A stretch of 36,254 nucleotides of DNA from Elusimicrobiales bacterium (GTDB lineage Bacteria > Elusimicrobiota > Elusimicrobia > Elusimicrobiales > UBA9959). Numbering within the stretch: position 1 is the first letter of the stretch; every line of letters begins with the position of its first letter. Made by a program: the position numbers and the translations under genes. Location of the stretch: positions 1-36,254 of the forward strand of contig JANZZP010000085.1 of NCBI GenBank assembly GCA_026419335.1, in the 5' to 3' direction. The notes under the pieces were generated by a model, which worked only from the letters and a program-made list of their open reading frames with translations, made no database searches and had not been told where the DNA came from. Positions 1-25,130 of this stretch are shown piece after piece.

Positions 1-414
1 TTTATCTGTCTTTTTAATATACTCAACAGCATAATCAAAATCATAAAATATATGAAAATTTGCTGTTGGTATATAATTTCTAAACATAAACTCTTTTGCA
101 ACTTGTTTTGAAGATTCAAGAACAGAGCCTTTAAGTCCAGGTCCAAAAACCATTTTACCAGATGCTCTTAATTTATCTGCTATACCTTTAGCTAACGGCA
201 ACTCCGGACCAACAATAACTATATCAATTGAATTTCTATCAACAAAAGATAATATTGAATCAAAATCAAGTATATCAATATCAATATTTTCAGAAATATT
301 AGAAAAGGAAGTATTTTTAGGAAGTGTATATAATTTTTTTAATAATGGACTTTGTCTTATTCTCCAACATATTGAATATTCTCTTCCACCACTTCCTAAA
401 ACAAGAACTTTCAT
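1..414 (-). CDS. purD: Phosphoribosylamine-glycine ligase PurD, N-terminal 138 residues (cut by window edge)
   Basis: PurD joins glycine to phosphoribosylamine with ATP to give GAR, the second step of purine synthesis. The visible part opens with the family's Rossmann-like start MKVLVLGSGGREY (residues 1-13). It continues with IVIVGPELPLAKGIADKL and VFGPG, typical of the PurD N-terminal domain. The ATG at 414 follows a clear GGAGG. The reading frame stays open to base 1, so the ATP-grasp part lies outside the window. It sits 11 bp after purF in the same direction. The usual GGREH is GGREY here, a Tyr in place of a well-conserved His; its effect is unknown. Confidence 0.93.
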   Translation of the reverse strand, partial: MKVLVLGSGGREYSICWRIRQSPLLKKLYTLPKNTSFSNISENIDIDILDFDSILSFVDRNSIDIVIVGPELPLAKGIADKLRASGKMVFGPGLKGSVLESSKQVAKEFMFRNYIPTANFHIFYDFDYAVEYIKKTDK

Positions 415-425
415 AAAACCTCCAC

Positions 426-1760
426 TTATAATACTGGATACTTCCTATCAAAACAAGCAGTACAAAAATTTTTATCCCCATTCCCACAAGCTTTTATAAG
501 ACTAGCAAGAGATATATAAAATAACTCATCAACCCCAATAAACTTTTTTATACTATCAATATCCATTATATTTGCTATAAGTTCTTTCTCACTTGGTGTG
601 TCTATTCCATAATAACAAGGACCTTTTACTGGAGGGCTGCCAATAATAAGATAAACTTTTGAAGCTCCTGCATTTCTAAGTTTTGAAACTATCTTTTTTG
701 AAGTAGTACCTCTAACAAGCGAATCATCTATTAAAATTATTTTCTTCCCTCTTATATTATCTTTAATGGGGGACAATTTTAAATCAGCTATAAATTCTCT
801 CAAGTCTTGATGAGGTTGTAAAAATGATCTAGGCGCATAATGATTTTTCATAAAAACAGGCATAAATTTCATATTTGATTTTTGAGCATAACCAATAGCA
901 TATGCAACTCCAGAATCAGGAACCCCACTAACTATATCAGCATTAATTTTATATTCCTCAGCAAGATATTTTCCAGCAAAATACCTAGAAGAAAACACGC
1001 TTCTTTCACATACTAACGAATCAGGTCGAGCAAAATAAACTTGTTCAAATATACATCTAAAATAGTTTTTTACTCTCTTAAACTTAAACTTCTTATATTT
1101 TCCATTCCTTACAATTCCTATTTCACCTGGAAAAATCTCATCATATACTTCATAACCACAACAATCAATTGCACATGTTTCTGAAGTAAATATAAATGAA
1201 TCATCTTTTCTACCAACTACAAGTGGTCTAAATCCCCAAGGGTCTCTAGCACAAATTAAACAATCTTGATATAAAAACAAAAAAGAGTACGCACCTTTTA
1301 ATTTTTCAAGTCCATCACATAAAGCATCAACAAAATCTTTCTTATCTGATAACGATATAAGATGAGCTATTATTTCACTATCAGTGGTGGTTTGAAATAT
1401 TGAACCTTTTTTAGATAATTCCTTTTTTAATTCTTCTGAATTAACTATATTACCATTGTGAGCAACAGCAAACTCCCCAAATTTAGTCCTAAAAAAAAGT
1501 GGCTGAGAATTAGTAATAGTAGAAGAACCAGTAGTAGAATATCTAACATGACCTATAGCATACTCTCCCTCAAGCATTTTAAGAATATCGCTATTAAAAA
1601 CTTCTTGAACAAGTCCCATAGAATTATAATATTTGTAACCATTTTTTCCAAACACAGCTATACCACAAGACTCTTGCCCTCTGTGTTGAAGTGAATACAA
1701 AGCAATATATGTCAAAAATGATGCTTTAGATGAATCAGTTATACCAAATATCCCACACAT
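426..1760 (-). CDS. purF: Amidophosphoribosyltransferase PurF
   Basis: PurF makes phosphoribosylamine from PRPP and glutamine, the committed step of purine synthesis. The 444-residue protein has Cys2 directly after Met, the Ntn glutaminase nucleophile, so no propeptide is needed. GHVRYSTTGSS and AHNGN belong to the glutaminase half. The phosphoribosyltransferase half carries the PRPP loop IIDDSLVRGTTSKKIV near residues 340-355. Cysteines in CIFEQVYFARPDS, GPCYYGIDTP and the C-terminal FCTACFDRKYP match the four ligands of the [4Fe-4S] cluster of the Bacillus subtilis-type enzyme. This implies an oxygen-sensitive form, a known family trait. It lies 2 bp after purQ and has no obvious Shine-Dalgarno, so translational coupling is likely. 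Confidence 0.97.
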   Translation of the reverse strand: MCGIFGITDSSKASFLTYIALYSLQHRGQESCGIAVFGKNGYKYYNSMGLVQEVFNSDILKMLEGEYAIGHVRYSTTGSSTITNSQPLFFRTKFGEFAVAHNGNIVNSEELKKELSKKGSIFQTTTDSEIIAHLISLSDKKDFVDALCDGLEKLKGAYSFLFLYQDCLICARDPWGFRPLVVGRKDDSFIFTSETCAIDCCGYEVYDEIFPGEIGIVRNGKYKKFKFKRVKNYFRCIFEQVYFARPDSLVCERSVFSSRYFAGKYLAEEYKINADIVSGVPDSGVAYAIGYAQKSNMKFMPVFMKNHYAPRSFLQPHQDLREFIADLKLSPIKDNIRGKKIILIDDSLVRGTTSKKIVSKLRNAGASKVYLIIGSPPVKGPCYYGIDTPSEKELIANIMDIDSIKKFIGVDELFYISLASLIKACGNGDKNFCTACFDRKYPVL

Positions 1761-1762
1761 AA

Positions 1763-2512
1763 TTACTTTACATATTCAACAGCATTTTTAAAAAAGTACC
1801 ATCCAACAGAATTTTCTTCTTCATTATACTTCCAAGGAGTTTGTATTGAGAAAAATGTTCTCTCTGGATGAGGCATCATACCCATAACATTCCCAAACTT
1901 ATTTGTGAGAGCCGCTATGTTACAGAGAGAACCATTTGGATTTTCAATATATTTCAAAGCATCAAGATTTGATGAAAGTATCTCACTTAAAATATTATTA
2001 TTTGCTATCAGTTTACCTTCCCCATGAGCAATCGGTAAGTAAAATTCTTCCGGAAGACCTTTAATAAATATAGAAGGAGATTTTCTGTTTACTTTAACTT
2101 TAACCCACCTACATAAAAAATGTCCACAGTCATTTAAAAAAAGAGTTACTCTTTGTTTAAAATCTGAATATGGCAATAAACCAGTTTTGACCAATACCTG
2201 AAAACCATTACATATACCTATAACAGGTCTTTTTGAATCTATAAATTTTTTAAAATTATTATAAAGTGATTTAATTCTAAGTGCAAAAATTTTACCTGCA
2301 GATATATCATCACCAAAAGAAAAACCACCAGGTAATGCAATTATATCATAATCATCAATATTTTTATATCCTTTTAAAACTTCGTTTATATGTACTCTCT
2401 CAGTAGATGCTCCAACATATTTAAAAGCATTTTCAGTTTCAATATCACAATTAGTTCCACAAGCTCTAAGAATTATAACCTTTGGTTTTTTTATAATATG
2501 TTTCTTTCCCAT
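1763..2512 (-). CDS. purQ: FGAM synthase glutaminase subunit PurQ
   Basis: PurQ is the class I glutamine amidotransferase that supplies ammonia to PurL for making FGAM from FGAR. The 249 residues include the start pattern VIILRACGTNCDIETE, the glycine-rich LPGGFSFGDDISAG, the nucleophile segment GICNGFQVL with the catalytic Cys, and the His-Glu pair in MMPHPER. It is slightly longer than the short Gram-positive PurQ (about 227 residues). Its start overlaps the end of purL by 22 bp. No better start exists downstream, because the conserved VIILRA segment begins at residue 12. Confidence 0.95.
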   Translation of the reverse strand: MGKKHIIKKPKVIILRACGTNCDIETENAFKYVGASTERVHINEVLKGYKNIDDYDIIALPGGFSFGDDISAGKIFALRIKSLYNNFKKFIDSKRPVIGICNGFQVLVKTGLLPYSDFKQRVTLFLNDCGHFLCRWVKVKVNRKSPSIFIKGLPEEFYLPIAHGEGKLIANNNILSEILSSNLDALKYIENPNGSLCNIAALTNKFGNVMGMMPHPERTFFSIQTPWKYNEEENSVGWYFFKNAVEYVK

Positions 2513-4905
2513 AACTGTCTCAACTTTTCTATATCAGATATAAAAAGTATCTTACCATTATTTCTAAAAACAATAGACGGAGCTGCTGTAGTATAACCAA
2601 TCTTAACAGCAGAAAAACGATTCATTAACTTAACAAACTCATTTTCTCTTTTTGAATCTATCTCAACTACAATTTTTGAACCACATTCACCAAAAAGTGC
2701 TTCTATATCAGTTATATTATATATTTTAATTAACTCATTCAGATTTATATCAGCACCAATAAAGCATAAAGACATTTCAAAAATACACGCAGCAAGTCCA
2801 CCTTCTGAAACATCATGAGCTGAAATTACAAAACCCTTTCTCATAGTTTCAAGAAGTTTAAGATAAACTTTTCTATTCTGTTTAAGATTTAAAGGAGAAA
2901 TATAATTGTTATCATTCTGAAATAATCTGCCATAAACACTTGCTCCAAGGCCTTTTCCAAACATTCCTACTACATATATCGGATTAGATGGTTTTTTAAA
3001 ATAAGATTTTACAATCTTTCTTACATCTTCAACTGGTGCAATAGCAGAAATCAAAAGTGTTGTTGGTATTCTATATATTTTTGAACCAATCTTTGTTTGA
3101 TTATAAAAACTATCTTTACCCGAAATATAAGGGACTTCCATATCAACTGAAGCATCCCTTGCCCCCATAGCAGCAAGACTAAATTCTCCCATAACTTTTT
3201 TATCATTTGGATTTGCTGCACAAAAATTATCTAAAGCGGCAGCTCTTGATATATCAGCTCCAACACAAGCTAAATTTCTTATAGCTTCATCAAAGCTATA
3301 TTTAGCCATCTCATAAGGAGAAATATCCGACATGTTAGGTTTCATTCCACAAGCAACAGCAAAACCATTAAATGAAGAAAAATCCCCACATACTTGTCCA
3401 GTCCAAATAACAGTAGCATCCGAAGGAGCATACTCATTAACACCACAAAAAGGTTTCAAAACAGTCTGCCCTATAACTTCATGATCATACTGTTGAATAA
3501 TCCATCTCCTAGATGTAACGTTTAAATCAGAAATTATCTTTTCAAATCTATCATAATAATCCATTACATAAATTTTTGATATTTTATTTTTCATTTTTGA
3601 TTCTATCCATATAGCCTTCCTTTCAATCTTAGGTAATCCTTGATGCAAAAAATCCATATCAAGTTCGACAATATTTTCACCTTTCCATTTTACAGTAAGT
3701 TTACGATCATCTGTAAATCTACCTATAATATACATTTGACATTCTTCAATTTCACATAATTTTTCAAGTTCTTTAATCTTATCTTCGTAGACACAAAGGA
3801 CCATTCTCTCTTGAGATTCACTAAGCCAGACTTGCCATCCTTCTATATCTCTATCCTTAAGAATTACTTTATCTAAATCCACCAAGGCACCAGTTTCACT
3901 AGCAAGTTCCCCAACCGCACTTGAAAAACCACCAGCACCACAATCTGTTAAAGCACTATATATAGAAAGTTCTCTTGCTTTTATCAACACATCAATGACT
4001 TTTTTCTCATTTATAGCATGTCCTATTTGCACATGACTTGAAGAAGAATTCTCATCAATATCTCGCGAAGAAAAAGTAGAACCACCTACACCATCTTTAC
4101 CAGTAGAACCACCAATAACTACAATATACGAACCTGGTAAAACCTTTTTATTAACAGCTTTTCTATTGATAATCCCTACACAACCAACATAAACTAATGG
4201 ATTATATAAATATCTATCATCAAAAAAAACACTACCACAAGCAGTAGGAATTCCAATTTTATTTCCGTAATCTCTAACTCCACTTACAACTCCAGATATT
4301 ATTTTATGAGGAGATAGAAAACCTTTTGATATATTATATTTTTTATCTGGAAAAGCAAAACAAAAATTATCAGTATTTAGAATAGGTTTTGCACCAAGCC
4401 CAACTCCCAAAATATCCCTAACAACACCTCCAACACCTGTCTCTGCTCCACCATATGGCTCAATAGCACAAGGATGATTGTGAGTTTCAACCTTAAAACA
4501 TATACCCCACTGAGATCCTTTTCTTAGCTCAATTACTCCAGCATTATCTTTAAATACACTTAAACAATAATTTTTGTTTAGTCTTTTTGTTGCATAAACT
4601 ATGGTATCCTTAAAAAGATTTTCGAAACGATAAACATTCTTTATTTTACCTTGATAATCTTTTATAGTTAAAACACATGGAGAATTAAATGTCTTATGTT
4701 TACAATGCTCAGACCATGTCTGGGCAATAGTTTCCATTTCAGCGCGGGTTGGATTCCTTGATATTTTTCTAAAATATTGAAGTATCATTTGTAACTCTTT
4801 GGAATTTAAAGACCAACTATATTTATTATTTAAATTGACTAATTGCTTCAAATTAATCTTAAAGATATCAAATAAATATTTATCTTTTGATAAAGATATT
4901 CTCAT
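2491..4905 (-). CDS. purL: FGAM synthase catalytic subunit PurL (standalone, without PurS region)
   Basis: PurL converts FGAR, ATP and PurQ-supplied ammonia to FGAM. The 804 residues include PTRAEMETIAQTWSEHCKHK (near 53-72), with the signature EHCKHK histidines. The Gly-rich segments HNHPCAIEPYGGAETGVGGV and GGSTGKDGVGGS follow, and SGKDSF and SAHDVSEGGLAA mark the second AIRS-like half. It resembles the longer PurL of delta-proteobacteria rather than the roughly 740-residue Bacillus form, but the N-terminal PurS-like region of that type is absent. That region is a separate gene just upstream. The ATG at 4905 has its own AGGAG with 5-nt spacing inside the end of that gene, so purL is initiated independently. 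Confidence 0.96.
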   Translation of the reverse strand: MRISLSKDKYLFDIFKINLKQLVNLNNKYSWSLNSKELQMILQYFRKISRNPTRAEMETIAQTWSEHCKHKTFNSPCVLTIKDYQGKIKNVYRFENLFKDTIVYATKRLNKNYCLSVFKDNAGVIELRKGSQWGICFKVETHNHPCAIEPYGGAETGVGGVVRDILGVGLGAKPILNTDNFCFAFPDKKYNISKGFLSPHKIISGVVSGVRDYGNKIGIPTACGSVFFDDRYLYNPLVYVGCVGIINRKAVNKKVLPGSYIVVIGGSTGKDGVGGSTFSSRDIDENSSSSHVQIGHAINEKKVIDVLIKARELSIYSALTDCGAGGFSSAVGELASETGALVDLDKVILKDRDIEGWQVWLSESQERMVLCVYEDKIKELEKLCEIEECQMYIIGRFTDDRKLTVKWKGENIVELDMDFLHQGLPKIERKAIWIESKMKNKISKIYVMDYYDRFEKIISDLNVTSRRWIIQQYDHEVIGQTVLKPFCGVNEYAPSDATVIWTGQVCGDFSSFNGFAVACGMKPNMSDISPYEMAKYSFDEAIRNLACVGADISRAAALDNFCAANPNDKKVMGEFSLAAMGARDASVDMEVPYISGKDSFYNQTKIGSKIYRIPTTLLISAIAPVEDVRKIVKSYFKKPSNPIYVVGMFGKGLGASVYGRLFQNDNNYISPLNLKQNRKVYLKLLETMRKGFVISAHDVSEGGLAACIFEMSLCFIGADINLNELIKIYNITDIEALFGECGSKIVVEIDSKRENEFVKLMNRFSAVKIGYTTAAPSIVFRNNGKILFISDIEKLRQLWERNIL

Positions 4906-5350
4906 TTATTCTCCTAATTTTCATATTATGTATAAGCTCATTAAAAAACTCTTCACGAACAAAATTTATAAATTCATCTATCGAGGAAGAACAATAAAAA
5001 CATTTACCCGTTCTTACATTAAATCTTTTGTTTATTAATTTGTTAACTATACCACTCACACTTTCTCCTACAACATCAGACACGCTATCTTTTAGAAATA
5101 TCTCTAATATAAATTTGTATCTTTTAAATAGAAATTTATCATTTCTTATATAATACTTCTCTACAACGGGATCTAAAAGTATATCCCTTGCTATAAGTTC
5201 AATATCACTAATATCATCACATTCTTTTATATCGTAAAGCTTTGTAAGTTTAAGATCAAAATTATTAACTTTAAAATGCTTAATAAAAAGTTCTCTTATG
5301 TTTTTACTTTCTTTATCATACTTATCAATTGTATATATCTCTACTATCAT
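4880..5350 (-). CDS. purS: Tandem PurS-like protein (two PurS repeats), FGAM synthase accessory subunit
   Basis: This 156-residue protein reads as two PurS-like halves. Residues 1-70 end in the pattern ARDILLDPVVEKYY, like the LxDPVxE end of a PurS unit. Residues 75-156 hold LEIFLKDSVSDVVGESV, matching the PurS pattern ExxxKxGVxDxxGxxx, then VRTGKCFY and a helix ending in FFNELIHN. PurS bridges PurL and PurQ in the multi-subunit enzyme. In long PurL proteins of delta-proteobacterial type, two such units form the N-terminus, and here they are encoded alone. The gene overlaps purL by 26 bp and starts 2 bp after purC. The assignment rests on pattern memory and position rather than on a search. 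Confidence 0.68.
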   Translation of the reverse strand: MIVEIYTIDKYDKESKNIRELFIKHFKVNNFDLKLTKLYDIKECDDISDIELIARDILLDPVVEKYYIRNDKFLFKRYKFILEIFLKDSVSDVVGESVSGIVNKLINKRFNVRTGKCFYCSSSIDEFINFVREEFFNELIHNMKIRRINENIFIKR

Positions 5351-5352
5351 AT

Positions 5353-6222
5353 CTATACACCTATTATCAATTTCATTATTTCAATATACTTATCTGATGT
5401 CTTTTCTATTATATCTTTAGGTAAAGACGGAGGTGGAGATTTTCTATCCCATAAAGTATTAAGAAGATAATTTCTAATAATCTGCTTATCATAGCTTTCA
5501 GGTTCAATACCAACTCTGAATGTTGAAGCATTCCAAAATCTTGAACTATCCGGAGTAAGCAATTCATCAATTAAGATAAGTTCACCATCTAATATACCAA
5601 ATTCAAATTTAGTATCAGCAATTATTATTCCTTTATTTAACAAAAAATCATGTGCAAAACTATATATTCTAAAAGAAATATCTTTTATTTTAGAGGCAAG
5701 TTCAAACCCAATTTTGTTTGAGACATAATTAAAATTAACATTTTCATCATGCGCTTTATCTGATTTAGTAGTAGGAGTGAAAATTGGTTCATCTAATTTC
5801 TGAGAATATTTAAGACCCTTTGGCAATTTTATATCACAAACACTACCATTTTTTTCATATTCTTTCCAAGCTGTTCCAAAAATATATCCTCTTACAATAA
5901 ATTCAAAATCTATTCTTTTGGCTTTATAACATAAAACTGTTCGTTTTTTATAATAATCATCTAAAAAAACTTTAGTTATATTATAAATTTCATCTATATC
6001 AGAAGTAATTAAATGATTTTTTACAATATTTTTTGTCCTGTTAAACCAAAAAACTGAAAGTTGAGTTAAAACTTCTCCTTTATATGGTATTTCATTTGGC
6101 AAAATCCAATCAAAAGCTGAAATTCTATCAGTTGTTACAATTAAAATCTTCTCTTCATCTAGATGATAAACATCTCTAACTTTTCCCTTATATGTTTTAA
6201 AATTTGATAAATTGGTTTTTAT
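5353..6222 (-). CDS. purC: SAICAR synthase PurC, apparently starting at an ATA codon
   Basis: PurC joins aspartate to CAIR to give SAICAR. Motifs seen are KGKVRDVY at the N-terminal nucleotide-binding sheet, IVTTDRISAFD, FIVRGYIFGTAWKEY, IIADTKFEFG, LTPDSSRFW and SYDKQIIRNYL near the end. The first TTG in frame (codes for L in WILP) would remove the first 39 residues, including KVRDVY, which the fold needs. Extending upstream, the frame has no ATG, GTG or TTG before the in-frame TAG that ends the transporter gene. The only sensible initiator is ATA at 6222, preceded by GGGAGGAG. That gives 289 residues, a normal length for the longer PurC type. The gene stands 9 bp after the MFS gene in the purine cluster. 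Confidence 0.9.
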   Translation of the reverse strand: MKTNLSNFKTYKGKVRDVYHLDEEKILIVTTDRISAFDWILPNEIPYKGEVLTQLSVFWFNRTKNIVKNHLITSDIDEIYNITKVFLDDYYKKRTVLCYKAKRIDFEFIVRGYIFGTAWKEYEKNGSVCDIKLPKGLKYSQKLDEPIFTPTTKSDKAHDENVNFNYVSNKIGFELASKIKDISFRIYSFAHDFLLNKGIIIADTKFEFGILDGELILIDELLTPDSSRFWNASTFRVGIEPESYDKQIIRNYLLNTLWDRKSPPPSLPKDIIEKTSDKYIEIMKLIIGV

Positions 6223-6232
6223 AACTCCTCCC
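6220..6232 (-). promoter_or_regulatory. Shine-Dalgarno and non-standard ATA initiator of purC
   Basis: Read on the minus strand, GGGAGGAG (6232-6225) is followed by TT and then ATA (6222-6220), AAA, ACC. Only one base separates this from an ordinary ATG AAA ACC start. The Shine-Dalgarno overlaps the TAG stop of the upstream gene. AUA is a very poor initiator in bacteria, so this would be a weak start, or it could be a sequencing error or strain mutation. Confidence 0.6.
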
Positions 6233-7377
6233 TAATAATTATAATTTATTCTTTTACTTTTTAAAACAACAAATAAGATAATAATAAGTGATACAATTAA
6301 AACATAATAAAAAAACATTTTGTAACCTAAATTTACAATACTCATTCCAACAAAAGCTCCAACCCCATAAGCAGTATACATAACTCCATAATTTTTAGCG
6401 TAATGAAGTAAACCAAAAAACCTCATTGTAGAGACAGGAGCCATAGCAAGCCAACCACCCAAATTAAACCATAAAAAAGCAAAAGCAATCAGATTAAAAT
6501 AAAAATTTATATTTAACAAGAGTAACAAAGATGAAATAAAATACATCAAAAAAGAAAAGATAACGCAAAAACTAAAACTAAACTTATCAGCCATATAACC
6601 AAAAAAAGGCCTCCCTAAAGCATTTAAAACAGCCATACTAGAAACAACATAGGAAGCTTTCTTAAGATCTAAATTTAAAAAATCTATAAAATATGTAGCT
6701 GTGAAAGATACAGAGGTTAAAGAAAATGAGCAACCAAATAAGAAAAATAAATACAAAATATAAAATTCTTTCATCTTCAAAACTTCAAAAGTATCCATAC
6801 CAACTTTAGAAAAATTATAGTCACTTATCTGTTTTGGAACTTTAACATTAAAATAACAGATAAAAAGCATCAAAAATACAATTAAACCGAAATAAAAAAA
6901 CGAAGTATTTAAAGGATAGTTTAAAATCAAGAATTTAAATATCTGTGAAGCAATAAATGAAGACAAACCAAAACCTGCTACTGTTATTCCCGTTGCTATA
7001 CCTTTTTTATCACTAAACCAAAGTGAAACAATCTTCAAAGGAACCCCATATAATATACCTGTCCCAATTCCACCTAAAACTCCATAAGTTAGAACAAAAC
7101 ATATAATAGAATTTATAAAATATGAACTAACCCAAGATGATGTTATCAATAAGCTACCTAAAACATAGGTTTTTCTAACACCAATTCTTTCAATCAAATA
7201 ACCACTTAATGGCATTGAAAAAGCAAAAAGTATAAGAAAAACTTTAAAAGGAAATCCACTTTGAATAGAAGTTATATTCAAATATTCTTCAAGGGGCTTT
7301 CTAAATATACTATAAGAATAAACAGTACCTCCAACAAGCATTATCAAAAAACTATTTATAAGATAAATTATCCTCAT
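6232..7377 (-). CDS. MFS transporter, oxalate/formate antiporter (OFA)-like
   Basis: A 381-residue membrane protein with about twelve hydrophobic segments. The start MRIIYLINSFLIMLVGGTVYSYSIFRKPLEE and the loop GYLIERIGVRKTYVLG match the OFA branch of the major facilitator superfamily. The second half repeats the MFS loop as GRPFFGYMADKFSF. Known OFA members exchange oxalate and formate or move other small monocarboxylates, but the substrate here cannot be read from sequence. It begins 1 bp after guaA and ends 9 bp before purC, so it is embedded in the purine cluster. Transport of a purine-related compound or of formate is conceivable but unproven. Confidence 0.8.
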   Translation of the reverse strand: MRIIYLINSFLIMLVGGTVYSYSIFRKPLEEYLNITSIQSGFPFKVFLILFAFSMPLSGYLIERIGVRKTYVLGSLLITSSWVSSYFINSIICFVLTYGVLGGIGTGILYGVPLKIVSLWFSDKKGIATGITVAGFGLSSFIASQIFKFLILNYPLNTSFFYFGLIVFLMLFICYFNVKVPKQISDYNFSKVGMDTFEVLKMKEFYILYLFFLFGCSFSLTSVSFTATYFIDFLNLDLKKASYVVSSMAVLNALGRPFFGYMADKFSFSFCVIFSFLMYFISSLLLLLNINFYFNLIAFAFLWFNLGGWLAMAPVSTMRFFGLLHYAKNYGVMYTAYGVGAFVGMSIVNLGYKMFFYYVLIVSLIIILFVVLKSKRINYNY

Positions 7378-21850: not shown

Positions 21851-22843
21851 TTAATATATCTTTCTTTTAAAAATAATATTTCCCCACCTATCAATATAAT
21901 ATAAGTTTGAATTATCCCTAACCTCAGCAATACCACAGTTAAACGTTGTTAAATCATCAAATGTTGGCTTCACTATCTCATTACCCTCATAATCTATGAA
22001 ACCATATCTACCATTCAAAACTACAACTGCTCTCATTTCATTAAAATAAAAAACAAAATCATATTTATTTTTAACAACCAAATTCCCATTTATGTCAACA
22101 AAACCCCATTTTCCATTTAACTTTACAGCAGCTCTTCCTTCAAAAAATGGTTCCGCTTCTTGATAAATAAAAGGAATGATAACTTTATCTTTTATATTTA
22201 TAAAACCCCACTTTTTATTAAGCATTACAGGAGCTAAATCGTAAGAAAATCCTTTAGCGGATTCATATTTAAGGGGTATAATAAAATTACCATCTTTATC
22301 GGTAAACCCTACCTTATCACCAACAACTAATTTTACAACTTCTCCTTCTTCAAATATAAGTTTTTTTAGCTTAATTTGATATGTATATAAAAGCCTATTT
22401 TCAACAAACTTTTTTCTCATTTCATCAACCAATTTTCTGATAGTTTTTCTATTATGAATTATATCTATAACTTTATTTCCTTTTAAATCTAATATACCCC
22501 ACTTATCATTTTTCCTAACAACTGAATATCCTTCATAAAAAGGCGAAACATAATCATACTCACAAGGAATAACCTCTTCACCGTCATCACAACAAAAACC
22601 CATTTTCGAATTTTTTATACATCTTTTAATTGTATATTTTGAAAGCTTAAAAGAATATATATTTTCCTCTCCATATCTTTTAAAAAATTTATTAATAACT
22701 TCGTCTCTTTCACGACATTTCAAATTATCTACAATATATATTATTTTCTTAAACTCTGATTGCGCTTGTTTTCTAAGAATTTCAAAATCATCACTAAAAG
22801 ACGAAGATTTTAAAAAGATTAACAGTATAACAAAAAAAATCAT
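21851..22843 (-). CDS. Secreted WG-repeat protein
   Basis: A 330-residue protein with a likely signal peptide (FFVILLIFLKSSSFS) and then a helical region to about residue 85. At least five WG-type repeats of the beta-strand kind follow: NDKWGILDLKGNKVID, NKKWGFINIKDKVIIP, NGKWGFVDINGNLVV, NGRYGFIDYEGNEIV and YYIDRWGNIIF. WG repeats are mostly found in surface or periplasmic proteins of unknown role. Its ATG overlaps the stop of the yajQ-like gene (ATGA), which ties it to that gene. The SD-less start would rely on coupling. Confidence 0.78.
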   Translation of the reverse strand: MIFFVILLIFLKSSSFSDDFEILRKQAQSEFKKIIYIVDNLKCRERDEVINKFFKRYGEENIYSFKLSKYTIKRCIKNSKMGFCCDDGEEVIPCEYDYVSPFYEGYSVVRKNDKWGILDLKGNKVIDIIHNRKTIRKLVDEMRKKFVENRLLYTYQIKLKKLIFEEGEVVKLVVGDKVGFTDKDGNFIIPLKYESAKGFSYDLAPVMLNKKWGFINIKDKVIIPFIYQEAEPFFEGRAAVKLNGKWGFVDINGNLVVKNKYDFVFYFNEMRAVVVLNGRYGFIDYEGNEIVKPTFDDLTTFNCGIAEVRDNSNLYYIDRWGNIIFKRKIY

Positions 22844-23337
22844 CTATAATTAGTAAAAATTAGAGTTATTCCAAAATCTAAACTTTTTAAATATGCTATT
22901 GTCTTTTGCAATTCATCCTTTGATTTTGAAAAAACTCTTATTAAATCTCCTTGAATTTGAGAATTAACTTTAAGTTTAGCATCTTTAACTGTTTTAACTA
23001 TTTCTTTAGCTTTATCTTGAGGAATACCTTGCTGAATTTGAACAACCATCTTTGCTCTTGAACCTAAAGTATTTTCTATACCTAAGACTTTAAAATTTTT
23101 TAATGGTAAATTTCTCTTTGCCATTCTTGTTAAAAGAACATCATAGAGTGTCTTTACCTTATATTCATCAATAGAAATAAGATATATCTTATTTTCTTTT
23201 TTGTCAAAATTAATTTCTGAATTAGTATCTTTAAAATCATATCTATTTGTTATTTCTTTCATTGTAACCGAAATTGACTCATCTACTATATTTGTATCAA
23301 CTTTAGAAATTATATCAAAACTATATTCTTGTGCCAT
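22840..23337 (-). CDS. yajQ: YajQ-family nucleotide-binding protein
   Basis: A 165-residue protein matching the YajQ family throughout: MAQEYSFDIISKVD at the start, NRYDFKDTNSEINFDK, LLTRMAKRNLPLKNFKVL, and the closing DLIRVFSKSKDELQKTIAYL. YajQ proteins bind nucleotides or RNA, and a Xanthomonas member binds cyclic di-GMP; the role in this organism is unknown. ATG 23337 is chosen over a TTG two codons earlier because AGGAGG lies 6 nt upstream. That Shine-Dalgarno sits inside the end of the radical SAM gene, which overlaps by 17 bp. Confidence 0.9.
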   Translation of the reverse strand: MAQEYSFDIISKVDTNIVDESISVTMKEITNRYDFKDTNSEINFDKKENKIYLISIDEYKVKTLYDVLLTRMAKRNLPLKNFKVLGIENTLGSRAKMVVQIQQGIPQDKAKEIVKTVKDAKLKVNSQIQGDLIRVFSKSKDELQKTIAYLKSLDFGITLIFTNYR

Positions 23338-24349
23338 AGACAACCTCCTCTTTTATATACATATCATTAATTACCTTACTAGTCAAACAAGCCAAATCAT
23401 AGACAAAGTTAAAATTAGAGGAATAAACATAAGAAATTCCAGGGCACCAACCACATATATTTATCATATTACAAAATTTACATTTATCAGGTTTAAATAA
23501 AAGATTTTTACGCAAATTTTCTAAAAGTTTTGAATTCCATATATCTGAAAAACTACTTCTTTTTAGATTACCTAAAGGATAGGGAAATGTAAGACACGGG
23601 AATACTTCTCCATTAGAACTTATAGCACATAAGTTTCTTCCAGCTCCACATGGGAAAAAATCAATGTTTTTAAAGTTTTCATTCACCTCAATCTGTACAA
23701 TTTTTTCTTTAATTATTTTTCCAAATTTTTTACAATCAATTTGAAATTCCTCATTTTTTTTCACACCATTATTTGATGGAGTTATTATTGGATCGAATCT
23801 TACAATAAAATCATTTTTTTTAGCAAATTCTTTTATCCACCATAAATCATTGAAATTTAAATTAGTTATTGGAGTTTTAATAATTATTCTAAAACCAATA
23901 TTTTTAGCTATAAAAATATTTTTCAAGGTAACATCAAAACAATCCCTATCAGTTGTTTTATTATGCACTTGTTTTCTACCATGAAGACTTACTTCTATAT
24001 CACGCACACCATACTTGTAGGCAACTTTAAGTTTATTTTCACATTCAATCCCAAGTGATGAAAATATCCTTACATTAAACTTTATTTTATAACATAACTT
24101 AAATATCTCCTCAATATCTTCTCTTAAAAAAATCTCACCACCTGTAAAGGTAATAAAAATTGTTCCCAATTTCTTTAGCTCATAAAGAATTTTTTCTATA
24201 TTACGAATGTTAAGCATATCATAAGAAAATTTATTATCAATATAACAAAAAACACAATTATTACAACATCTTTTAGTAAGCTCTATTGTAACAAATAAAG
24301 GGATATTATTAACATAAGATAAAGAAACAAGTTTTTTAGAAACACTCAT
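23321..24349 (-). CDS. SPASM-domain radical SAM peptide maturase
   Basis: A 342-residue radical SAM enzyme. Cys28, Cys32 and Cys35 in CCNNCVFC give the CxxxCxxC ligands of the SAM cluster. ITFTGGEIFLRED is the SAM-binding GGE motif. The C-terminal third has a SPASM-type Cys set: FPCGAGRNLC, SNGEVFPCLTFP, CKFCNMINICGWC and a last Cys near residue 320. These would hold auxiliary iron-sulfur clusters, as in PqqE and AlbA-like enzymes that modify peptides. It overlaps the peptidase gene by 14 bp and follows the PqqD-like and small-peptide genes, so the 46-residue peptide is the likely substrate. The chemistry (thioether, C-C or other cross-link) cannot be read from sequence. Confidence 0.88.
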   Translation of the reverse strand: MSVSKKLVSLSYVNNIPLFVTIELTKRCCNNCVFCYIDNKFSYDMLNIRNIEKILYELKKLGTIFITFTGGEIFLREDIEEIFKLCYKIKFNVRIFSSLGIECENKLKVAYKYGVRDIEVSLHGRKQVHNKTTDRDCFDVTLKNIFIAKNIGFRIIIKTPITNLNFNDLWWIKEFAKKNDFIVRFDPIITPSNNGVKKNEEFQIDCKKFGKIIKEKIVQIEVNENFKNIDFFPCGAGRNLCAISSNGEVFPCLTFPYPLGNLKRSSFSDIWNSKLLENLRKNLLFKPDKCKFCNMINICGWCPGISYVYSSNFNFVYDLACLTSKVINDMYIKEEVVYGTRI

Positions 24350-24668
24350 ACAAAATTTTCTTAAAATTTCTAAAATACCTTAAAAGCCAACCTAATATAT
24401 ATCCTGAATATCCATTCCAAAAGCTTAAAACTTTACCAATTATATCCTCCCTTTTAATATTATGAAATGACAAATCATCATCATTTGATATTATCACTTC
24501 TTTATCATCTACTTTATAAACTCTATGAACATATAATCTATTTAAAAATTTATATAAAACAATATCACCTATCTTTATATTATCTGAACCAATTTTCACA
24601 AATAAATACTCATCCTTTATAAAAGGTAACATACTAGTTCCAAAAACCTTTATTGATAGTATTTTCAT
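24336..24668 (-). CDS. S26-type signal peptidase-like protein of the peptide module
   Basis: A 110-residue protein of the S24/S26 type. GTSMLPFI (Ser12) is the nucleophile box, NIKIGDIVLYK a core strand, and YVHRVYKV (His48-Arg49) the box D. A His rather than Lys makes it like the ER/archaeal/SipW signal peptidases. SNDDD follows as the acidic box. No N-terminal membrane anchor is present; a hydrophobic, aromatic tail (SGYILGWLLRYF) could touch the membrane. It overlaps the peptide gene by 4 bp (ATGA), so release of the leader from the modified peptide is a reasonable guess. SPase-like proteins in such clusters may also have no cleavage role. Confidence 0.75.
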   Translation of the reverse strand: MKILSIKVFGTSMLPFIKDEYLFVKIGSDNIKIGDIVLYKFLNRLYVHRVYKVDDKEVIISNDDDLSFHNIKREDIIGKVLSFWNGYSGYILGWLLRYFRNFKKILYECF

Positions 24669-24805
24669 GATCTTCGTCTTAAGGTTTTACACGCAAGCTG
24701 ATTTATCGGACCTGTCTGACACTTACCACAAGAAAGAGCAGCTGTTTCATATATTTTTTCTTTCTTTATAGATGGTTTTATGTATTTTTTCTTATTACTT
24801 TTCAT
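24665..24805 (-). CDS. Putative RiPP precursor peptide, 46 residues, three Cys
   Basis: This short gene lies between the PqqD-like and peptidase genes. The peptide starts MKSNKKKYIKPSIKKEK and has the YxxPx[IL] pattern (Tyr8, Pro11, Ile13) that RRE/PqqD domains recognise in lasso and other RiPP leaders. The C-terminal half has Cys26, Cys29 and Cys39 in SCGKCQTGP and QLACKTLRRRS, a plausible core. The start has GGAAGGG about 4 nt upstream. It overlaps the pqqD-like gene by 11 bp and the peptidase by 4 bp, so all four genes look translationally coupled. TAA before Leu24 would suit a signal-peptidase-like cut, but that is inference. I do not recognise a named family. Confidence 0.72.
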   Translation of the reverse strand: MKSNKKKYIKPSIKKEKIYETAALSCGKCQTGPINQLACKTLRRRS

Positions 24806-25046
24806 AAATCCCTTCCAAAATCATTTCGTTTATAATCGAATCAACATCTTTTTTTGCTGTATTAAAATCAATATCATAATTATAGCTAATCTCTTTTACT
24901 ATTTCATATTTATCTACACCATTTAACAACCTTTCAAACACAATAGAAGCAGTTTCATTTAATTCATAAAGTATATTTTCATCCGTATTTATTAAAAATA
25001 TCTCTGTTCCTATTCTACGCCAAACAGTATTTTTTGATAGCTTCAT
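24795..25046 (-). CDS. PqqD-like RRE protein
   Basis: An 83-residue protein with the PqqD-family pattern VWRRIGTEIFLINTDENILYELNETA, then a helical second half with EIVKEISYNYDI and ending INEMILEGIYEK. PqqD-type proteins (RiPP recognition elements) bind the leader peptide and present it to a radical SAM enzyme. The downstream small peptide and SPASM enzyme fit that role. A longer frame with an ATG at 25070 would begin inside the tRNA, so ATG 25046 is chosen. There is no Shine-Dalgarno; TATAAT ends 7 nt before the ATG. Confidence 0.82.
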   Translation of the reverse strand: MKLSKNTVWRRIGTEIFLINTDENILYELNETASIVFERLLNGVDKYEIVKEISYNYDIDFNTAKKDVDSIINEMILEGIYEK

Positions 25047-25059: not shown

Positions 25060-25130
25060 CTCCCGGGCATGGACTCGAACCATGAACAACGCCTCCAAAG
25101 GGCGCTGTGTTACCATTACACCACCCGGGA
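25060..25130 (-). tRNA. tRNA-Gln(UUG)
   Basis: A 71-nt cloverleaf without encoded CCA. The acceptor stem is TCCCGGG/CCCGGGA (7 bp) and the discriminator is G73. The D-arm is GTGT/ACAC around AATGGTA, and the anticodon stem GCGCC/GGCGT holds the loop CTTTGGA, so the anticodon is TTG (Gln, CAA). The T-arm CATGG/CCATG has the loop TTCGAGT. All stems pair, apart from one G-T pair. It stands 35 bp after spoVG and 13 bp before the pqqD-like gene and is probably cut from a longer transcript. Confidence 0.95.

Follow-up and report, generated by a model that had tools for sequence, protein, structure and literature searches.

Closest described pathways and the cassette of this study

The nearest described relatives of the locus treated here are the linear polyphosphorylated peptides (LPPs) of Bacillota (Popov et al., Nat Commun, May 2026, PMC13381572). 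According to the main text of that paper, an LPP gene set comprises a discrete recognition element (RRE) for ribosomally synthesised and post-translationally modified peptides (RiPPs), a SipW-like peptidase with a Ser-His-Asp triad, an HprK-like kinase, a nucleoside triphosphate (NTP) transferase and an MsbA-like exporter. The leader follows the consensus YxxPxVLxHQxIxFETxxS, the cut follows Phe-Glu-Thr, and the variable cores are phosphorylated at core Ser3 (PMC13381572). HprK-type kinases have also been described to phosphorylate the C-terminal Ser in paeninodin-type lasso peptides (PMC9266682). Here, these systems are compared with a four-gene cassette of an Elusimicrobiales bacterium (assembly GCA_026419335.1, contig JANZZP010000085.1, positions 1 to 36,254; this whole stretch of 36,254 nucleotides is called the window), which encodes a PqqD-like protein, a 46-residue peptide, an S24/S26 peptidase and a SPASM radical S-adenosylmethionine (SAM) enzyme.

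With a probability of roughly 0.78, the cassette is a RiPP maturation locus that works like the LPP pathway with a SPASM radical SAM enzyme added. In the proposed pathway, the PqqD-like RRE would bind the YxKPxI leader and present the precursor, the radical SAM enzyme would modify the Cys core, where thioether cross-links formed by C26, C29 and C39 are the likeliest outcome, and the invariant C-terminal Ser46 would be phosphorylated by an HprK-like kinase whose gene, in the window's lineage, probably lies outside this locus. Cleavage after Tyr19-Glu20-Thr21 by the S24/S26 peptidase would free the 25-residue product AALSCGKCQTGPINQLACKTLRRRS, for which a giant exported protein would be the best candidate as conserved partner. 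The proposal is built on the genes, their conservation, synteny and co-occurrence, and on the cleavage motif and terminal Ser, all read from sequence. An initial annotation, which had seen a PqqD/SPASM peptide-maturation module here, was right in substance; what it lacked was the kinase of relatives, the predicted cleavage site of LPP type, the terminal Ser that never varies, the conservation across the phylum and the link to giant proteins.

The precursor peptide and its conservation

The peptide open reading frame (ORF) is a genuine conserved gene product and not a chance ORF. Fifteen close homologues were found, and 583 by profile at E <= 1; the 134 distinct peptides considered below are those listed from the close-homologue search together with the best 120 of the 583 profile matches. 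The search proposed by the initial annotation, for the same peptide beside PqqD and SPASM genes elsewhere, was carried out as one scan of one genome per species over 84,980 species, using two exact patterns that divergent cores would escape; it returned 35 loci, and the homologues were aligned. Thirty-two of these loci come from organisms named as Elusimicrobia, Elusimicrobiales, Elusimicrobiota, Elusimicrobium or Endomicrobia, and three from organisms named only as "bacterium". Likewise, 16 of the 120 listed profile homologues carry an organism name, which is of an Elusimicrobiota or Endomicrobia type in 15 and only "bacterium" in one. Within the phylum Elusimicrobiota, to which G001, the genome holding the syntenic locus L002, belongs, the peptide is present in 54 of 340 genomes. 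A viral origin was also considered, and none of 17 pattern matches in viral contigs was confirmed.

YxxP, CxKC and a terminal Ser are each found in 134 of the 134 listed peptides, as is a third Cys seven residues from the C-terminus, which is separated from the second by nine residues in 83 peptides and by ten in 51. The terminal Ser also occurs in all 55 distinct peptides taken from loci, and the alignments place Lys28 and Leu24 among the invariant core residues. The tripeptide preceding the core is FET in 98 listed peptides, IET in 17, FEQ in 9, LET in 4, YET in 3, and FEH, LEK and IES in one each, which amounts to xET before the predicted cut in 122 of 134.

Median pairwise identity is 0.64 for the peptide, against 0.38 for the radical SAM enzyme, 0.35 for PqqD, 0.32 for the S26 peptidase and 0.30 for the kinase found in relatives, and the peptide is the more conserved partner in 1269/1275, 1428/1431, 1481/1485 and 1176/1176 pairs, respectively. 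Since synonymous codons vary in those same alignment columns, selection acts on the peptide itself. Such a nearly invariant core leads one to expect a single conserved partner rather than changing targets, and points to a physiological and not an antagonistic role, which would offer a rare handle on how such peptides are used by their own cells. A bacteriocin of the sactipeptide or ranthipeptide type, which would carry thioether links, leave the cell through a transporter encoded elsewhere and kill competitors, is for this reason quite improbable: typical bacteriocin cores are not so conserved, whereas this one is more conserved than its enzymes. Moreover, no immunity or export gene was recognised nearby, and the window and L002 share a housekeeping locus, even though the three core Cys, the small cationic core and the proximity of the SPASM enzyme to SkfB (6efn, 1e-11), its closest solved structure in the PDB, would all suit such a bacteriocin.

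No named peptide family in NCBIfam or Pfam accommodates the peptide, the best match being SCIFF, below cut-off. SCIFF is a clostridial thioether peptide with six Cys, and the present peptide could be conceived as its counterpart in Elusimicrobiota, in which case kinase and giant protein would be neighbours by coincidence; the SCIFF profile does match residues 12-41 weakly (E 0.007-0.014). This seems very improbable, given scores under both cut-offs (16.7 vs 27 bits for PF13165 and 15.3 vs 50 for TIGR03973), three Cys as opposed to six in 45, a radical SAM enzyme without a fused RRE, a peptide found in just 54 of 340 genomes, and a kinase and giant protein that co-occur with the cassette even when unlinked.

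The maturation enzymes

The cassette genes follow one another on the minus strand in the order PqqD-like protein, peptide, peptidase and radical SAM enzyme, and the overlaps of 11, 4 and 14 bp reported by the initial annotation agree exactly with the ORF coordinates. Its assignments of the three proteins were likewise recovered by Pfam (PqqD, Peptidase_S24, Radical_SAM and SPASM), and the YxxPxI leader and three core Cys that it had described correspond to Y8-I-K-P11-S-I13 and to Cys 26, 29 and 39. The window leader YIKPSIKKEKIYET fits the LPP consensus by motif, with a spacer two residues shorter.

The PqqD-like protein, whose gene is present in 54 of 55 distinct cassette loci, matches lasso_PqqD_Strm (4e-11, under the NCBIfam cut-off). 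A single tRNA-Gln lies immediately upstream of it in the window; an alternative in-frame ATG at 25070 falls within this tRNA gene, and the start of the L002 homologue aligns with 25046. The peptidase matches sigpep_I_arch (3e-8, below cut-off), and its AF2 model (predicted local distance difference test, pLDDT, 90) resembles the LexA C-domain (6e-4) and the SpsB signal peptidase (9e-4) in the PDB; in the alignment, Ser12, His48 and Asp63 coincide with the LPP-type triad. The profile for this family was built from proteins of <175 residues, since some giant proteins carry a fused S26 domain.

The radical SAM enzyme contains CX3CX2C at residues 28-35 and a SPASM pattern formed by CX12GX4C (234-252), CX2CX5CX2C (290-302) and C321. 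The initial annotation's count of about eight auxiliary-type Cys is close, with seven counted (234, 252, 290, 293, 299, 302 and 321) and C241 as a possible eighth. Given three fixed Cys, thioether cross-linking would be the likeliest reaction. SPASM enzymes catalyse many reactions, and the enzyme could instead target another residue, by a C-C link or epimerisation, leaving the Cys free, in a disulfide or metal-bound and the rest of the pathway as proposed. The invariant Lys28 and Leu24 could be the sites and CxKC could bind a metal; such chemistry is nonetheless unlikely, though to be taken seriously, because a core of exactly spaced Cys best fits thioethers.

The family's radical SAM enzyme is found in 51 of the 54 peptide genomes and in 5 of the 286 others (Fisher 6e-51, a test that here and below treats related genomes as independent), with cut-offs of >= 300 bits for this enzyme and E <= 1e-40 for the kinase, both chosen after a gap in the scores had been seen. 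Thus, 51 of 56 genomes holding the enzyme also hold the peptide, as expected of the maturation module that the initial annotation had proposed. Radical SAM and PqqD genes without the peptide, which it had named as evidence to the contrary, were sought over the 340 genomes, and what was found did not overturn the proposal. In G161, G174, G305 and G330, where the peptide is missing, the enzyme lies at a contig end, and contig ends explain these incomplete sets and that of G113. G240 has a kinase-PqqD-radical SAM unit with no peptide on that contig, and in G002 such a unit is set apart from the peptide, which sits on another contig. Pairwise identities of the four enzymes correlate with r 0.79-0.93, as shared inheritance would give.

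The HprK/PEPCK-fold kinase

In relatives, a fifth gene upstream of PqqD encodes an HprK/PEPCK-fold kinase. It occurs in 49 of 55 distinct loci, at <=300 bp from PqqD in 47 of these 49, and is missing from L002, L019, L033, L035, L072 and the window. Across the phylum it is found in 51 of 54 peptide genomes and in 4 of 286 others (Fisher 5e-52); G329 has only a weak, unlinked match (3e-33). In G001, the kinase is on contig C6 and the cassette on C23, and because this genome holds the window's syntenic relative, the window's lineage probably keeps its kinase unlinked as well. Four kinases tested matched the NCBIfam models HprK_rel_A (to 1e-9) and ScmC (9e-9), all below cut-offs. Compared with the PDB, a structural model (pLDDT 95) matched both PEP carboxykinase (4e-9) and HPr kinase/phosphatase (4e-5); 23 kinase sequences all share the P-loop Gly and Lys, one His and an Asp-Glu pair. 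The only invariant Ser of the peptide is its C-terminal residue, which would be the expected site of this kinase.

Six further loci of the phylum (L115, L117-L121) form a second cluster type, in which this kinase has one, two or three radical SAM enzymes next to it and all loci but one include PqqD. In these, Pfam detected NTP_transf_5 (L115, L118, L120 and L121), an ABC exporter (L119, L120 and L121) and Peptidase_S24 (L120).

A motif search blind to the last residue found candidate precursors in L117, L118, L119 and L120, all four ending in Ser, and none in L115 or L121. This pattern supports the view that the kinase acts on the C-terminal Ser, and the gene content of the second clusters shows that putative LPP-type gene sets with radical SAM enzymes extend beyond this cassette.

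Association with giant exported proteins

Downstream of many cassettes lies a very large protein whose N-terminus, judged by eye, is hydrophobic and signal-peptide-like, in a phylum that has been noted for huge, poorly characterised proteins (PMC11573180). Among the 42 cassettes with enough sequence (13 others had too little), 32 have a same-strand ORF of at least 700 residues <=3 kb away, and in four more (L074, L075, L082 and L083) the S26 domain is fused to the large downstream protein; the fusions L074, L075 and L082 carry the N-terminal domain of the giant family. The resulting 36 of 42 is an upper figure, because the criterion of >= 700 residues also catches non-giants (L016 and L018). 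As a control, positions drawn at random from 20 regions of 20 kb each gave such an ORF in 8.6% of cases.

Adjacency could reflect shared ancestry, and therefore co-occurrence over the 340 genomes and unlinked cases were examined in addition to this control. The giant N-terminal domain (one family, alignment A8) is found in 25 of the 340 genomes, 23 of which have the peptide (Fisher 9e-19); in the other two, G113 and G330, kinase or PqqD-radical SAM genes lie at contig ends. Domain and peptide are on different contigs in G001, G116, G117 and G333, so the link between giant and cassette exceeds adjacency. The open frames of the giants span 8,832-10,482 codons in 9 of the 25 genomes and 298-6,956 in the other 16, one with an internal stop (examples are L094 2203-19902, L034 8569-16134, G152:C35, G324:C38 and G325:C3). 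By Pfam, Ig-like domains are present in all three N-terminal pieces tested, and the two C-terminal pieces contain fn3 and lamin-tail domains.

Given this genetic tie to giant exported proteins, a cell-surface role is probable, and not an antibiotic one. It is tentatively suggested, as a doubtful but specific possibility, that the product, phosphorylated and cross-linked by the radical SAM enzyme, serves an exported protein of up to ~10,000 residues as its dedicated partner, whether as prosthetic group, anchor or assembly factor. If true, a RiPP pathway would be the maturation system of a giant cell-surface protein, merging LPP-type and radical-SAM chemistry; the link provides a concrete functional hypothesis, and the cleavage site, the phospho-site and the arrangement of the Cys are predicted precisely enough to be tested.

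At both C-termini examined, a PQQ-repeat-type beta-propeller (PF13570) scored 92 and 91 bits, below the cut-off of 133, and together with the PqqD plus SPASM logic this would fit a core trimmed to a small redox cofactor, PQQ- or mycofactocin-like, for an enzyme, perhaps the giant's propeller. Such a cofactor is improbable: PQQ-repeat-type propellers often bind no PQQ, the constant length and the terminal Ser speak for a core kept in full, and the cassette has no trimming peptidase besides the S24/S26 protein. The radical SAM enzyme reaches 60.6 of the 381 bits required by the PqqE model and 68 of the 265 required by the mycofactocin model, and the peptide fits neither PqqA nor MftA.

Separately, pilin-like genes and large type IV pilin-like proteins were observed ahead of the cassette in 19 of the 42 loci where the sequence extends >= 5 kb upstream, as in L001, L004, L011, L025 and L027, where they precede the kinase; the window has none. 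One such protein tested (844 residues) has N_methyl and carboxypeptidase-regulatory-like domains, and a lamin-tail domain below cut-off.

Features and genomic context of the window

Table 1. Features of the maturation cassette in the window, with the evidence for each assignment
Feature	Position	Strand	Evidence
PqqD-like leader-binding protein, discrete RRE, 83 aa	24795..25046	-	PF05402 E 5e-11
Precursor peptide, 46 aa: MKSNKKKYIKPSIKKEKIYET / AALSCGKCQTGPINQLACKTLRRRS	24665..24805	-	homologues and alignments
Putative leader M1-T21	24743..24805	-	Y8xKP11xI13 RRE motif; Y19-E20-T21 cleavage motif; LPP leader match
Putative core A22-S46, 25 aa	24668..24742	-	C26, C29, C39 and terminal S46
S24/S26 (signal-peptidase-I/SipW-like) leader peptidase, 110 aa	24336..24668	-	PF00717 3e-7; predicted triad Ser12-His48-Asp63
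SPASM radical SAM maturase, 342 aa	23321..24349	-	PF04055 1e-14; PF13186 2e-12

The gene set is found again in relatives in two gene orders. The remaining window ORFs scanned are housekeeping-like (purine synthesis, a valyl-tRNA-synthetase-type ligase, SPFH, DUF520/YajQ, SpoVG, TPR, a GHMP kinase resembling IspE and another radical SAM protein that by eye resembles HemW). The order in L002, from a metagenome assembly labelled Elusimicrobium minutum, is by eye that of the window (TPR-IspE-SpoVG-PqqD-peptide-S26-radical SAM-YajQ-WG repeat-SPFH-HemW-ValS), except for the insertion of an endonuclease I gene ahead of PqqD; this shared order places the window almost certainly in the Elusimicrobiota. 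A WG-repeat protein with five repeats was observed at 21851-22843 of the window, and a similar protein occupies the same place in L002 (by eye). As the initial annotation had stated, no transporter or recognisable immunity gene is adjacent to the cassette, nor is NTP_transf_5, among the 28 other window ORFs searched with Pfam at 1e-5; the sole window transporter is an MFS protein ~16 kb away.

Observations weighing against the proposed pathway

Several observations weigh against the proposal and against the extension to giant proteins. The kinase is absent from the window, in which the kinase and giant-protein profiles gave zero matches, and the window and L002 are among the six of 42 cassettes without a nearby large ORF. 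The giant N-terminal domain is lacking in 31 of the 54 peptide genomes, and in ten loci a different large protein occupies the giant's place. The residue before the predicted cut is Gln in 9, and His, Lys and Ser in one each, of the 134 listed peptides, instead of Thr. Cys replaces the Ser nucleophile (GGCMRP) in 5 of 27 aligned peptidases (L034, L035, L076, L079 and L080), which reads as a natural Ser-to-Cys swap in a putative signal-peptidase-like enzyme. LPPs, as described, are phosphorylated at core Ser3 (PMC13381572), whereas position 3 of this core is Leu and the expected site is the C-terminal Ser; additionally, neither the LPP NTP transferase (PF14907) nor an MsbA-like exporter is among the window ORFs scanned. 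Three genomes have broken sets: in G145, kinase and PqqD lie away from contig ends, and neither the peptide nor this radical SAM enzyme was found; G004 has peptide, S26, PqqD and kinase and lacks a radical SAM enzyme of >= 300 bits, despite 8 kb of available sequence downstream; and G118 has the enzyme as partial matches only. Contig ends probably account for the incomplete sets of G118, G119 and G137, in which the peptide or its neighbours lie near one. The relatedness of the genomes behind the Fisher values belongs with these points.

Comparison with known systems

With the LPP pathway, the cassette shares the discrete RRE, the SipW-like Ser-His-Asp peptidase, the YxxPx[V/I] leader and the (F/Y)-E-T site, and, in relatives only, the HprK-like kinase. 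It differs by the added SPASM radical SAM enzyme, by a near-invariant core with three Cys as opposed to variable LPP cores, and by its host, Elusimicrobiota rather than Bacillota; the terms "radical SAM" and "Elusimicrobi" are absent from the main text of the LPP paper (PMC13381572). A search for the exporter and NTP transferase found neither, and the window lacks the kinase, so the cassette should not be classed as an LPP member. With paeninodin-type lasso peptides, as described, the family shares the HprK-type kinase and C-terminal Ser, the discrete RRE and a YxxP/WxxP leader (PMC9266682), whereas it possesses a signal-peptidase-like protease, a radical SAM enzyme and a Cys core, and neither the B2 protease nor the macrolactam synthetase C was found among the window ORFs scanned.

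Sactipeptides and ranthipeptides (SkfB, AlbA and SCIFF/CteB) likewise pair a small precursor containing Cys with a SPASM radical SAM enzyme. The cassette differs from these by its separate RRE, its S24/S26 peptidase, the kinase of relatives and the conserved core, and by having no recognised immunity or export genes. The SynChlorMet cassette (ScmA-F) has two radical SAM enzymes and is not known to include a signal-peptidase-like enzyme. Its HprK-related ScmC matches the relatives' kinase and its SPASM enzyme ScmE matches the window's radical SAM enzyme, both below cut-off; the window peptide fits none of the NCBIfam models ScmA-F, and the literature search found no SynChlorMet paper.

The combination, which the initial annotation had not recognised as a named class, has no such name in NCBIfam, Pfam or the literature searched either. 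Searches for Elusimicrobia with RiPP, radical SAM or PqqD, or for HprK with radical SAM and signal peptidase, found nothing in a literature from which subscription papers were mostly excluded. With LPP as its nearest relative, the cassette is best read as belonging to an uncharacterised RiPP family that resembles LPP in its predicted leader recognition and cleavage and, in relatives, in phosphorylation, and that adds a radical SAM step. In such a family, spread through one phylum, a single small precursor would be the substrate of a radical SAM enzyme, a signal-peptidase-like protease and a kinase for its C-terminal Ser.

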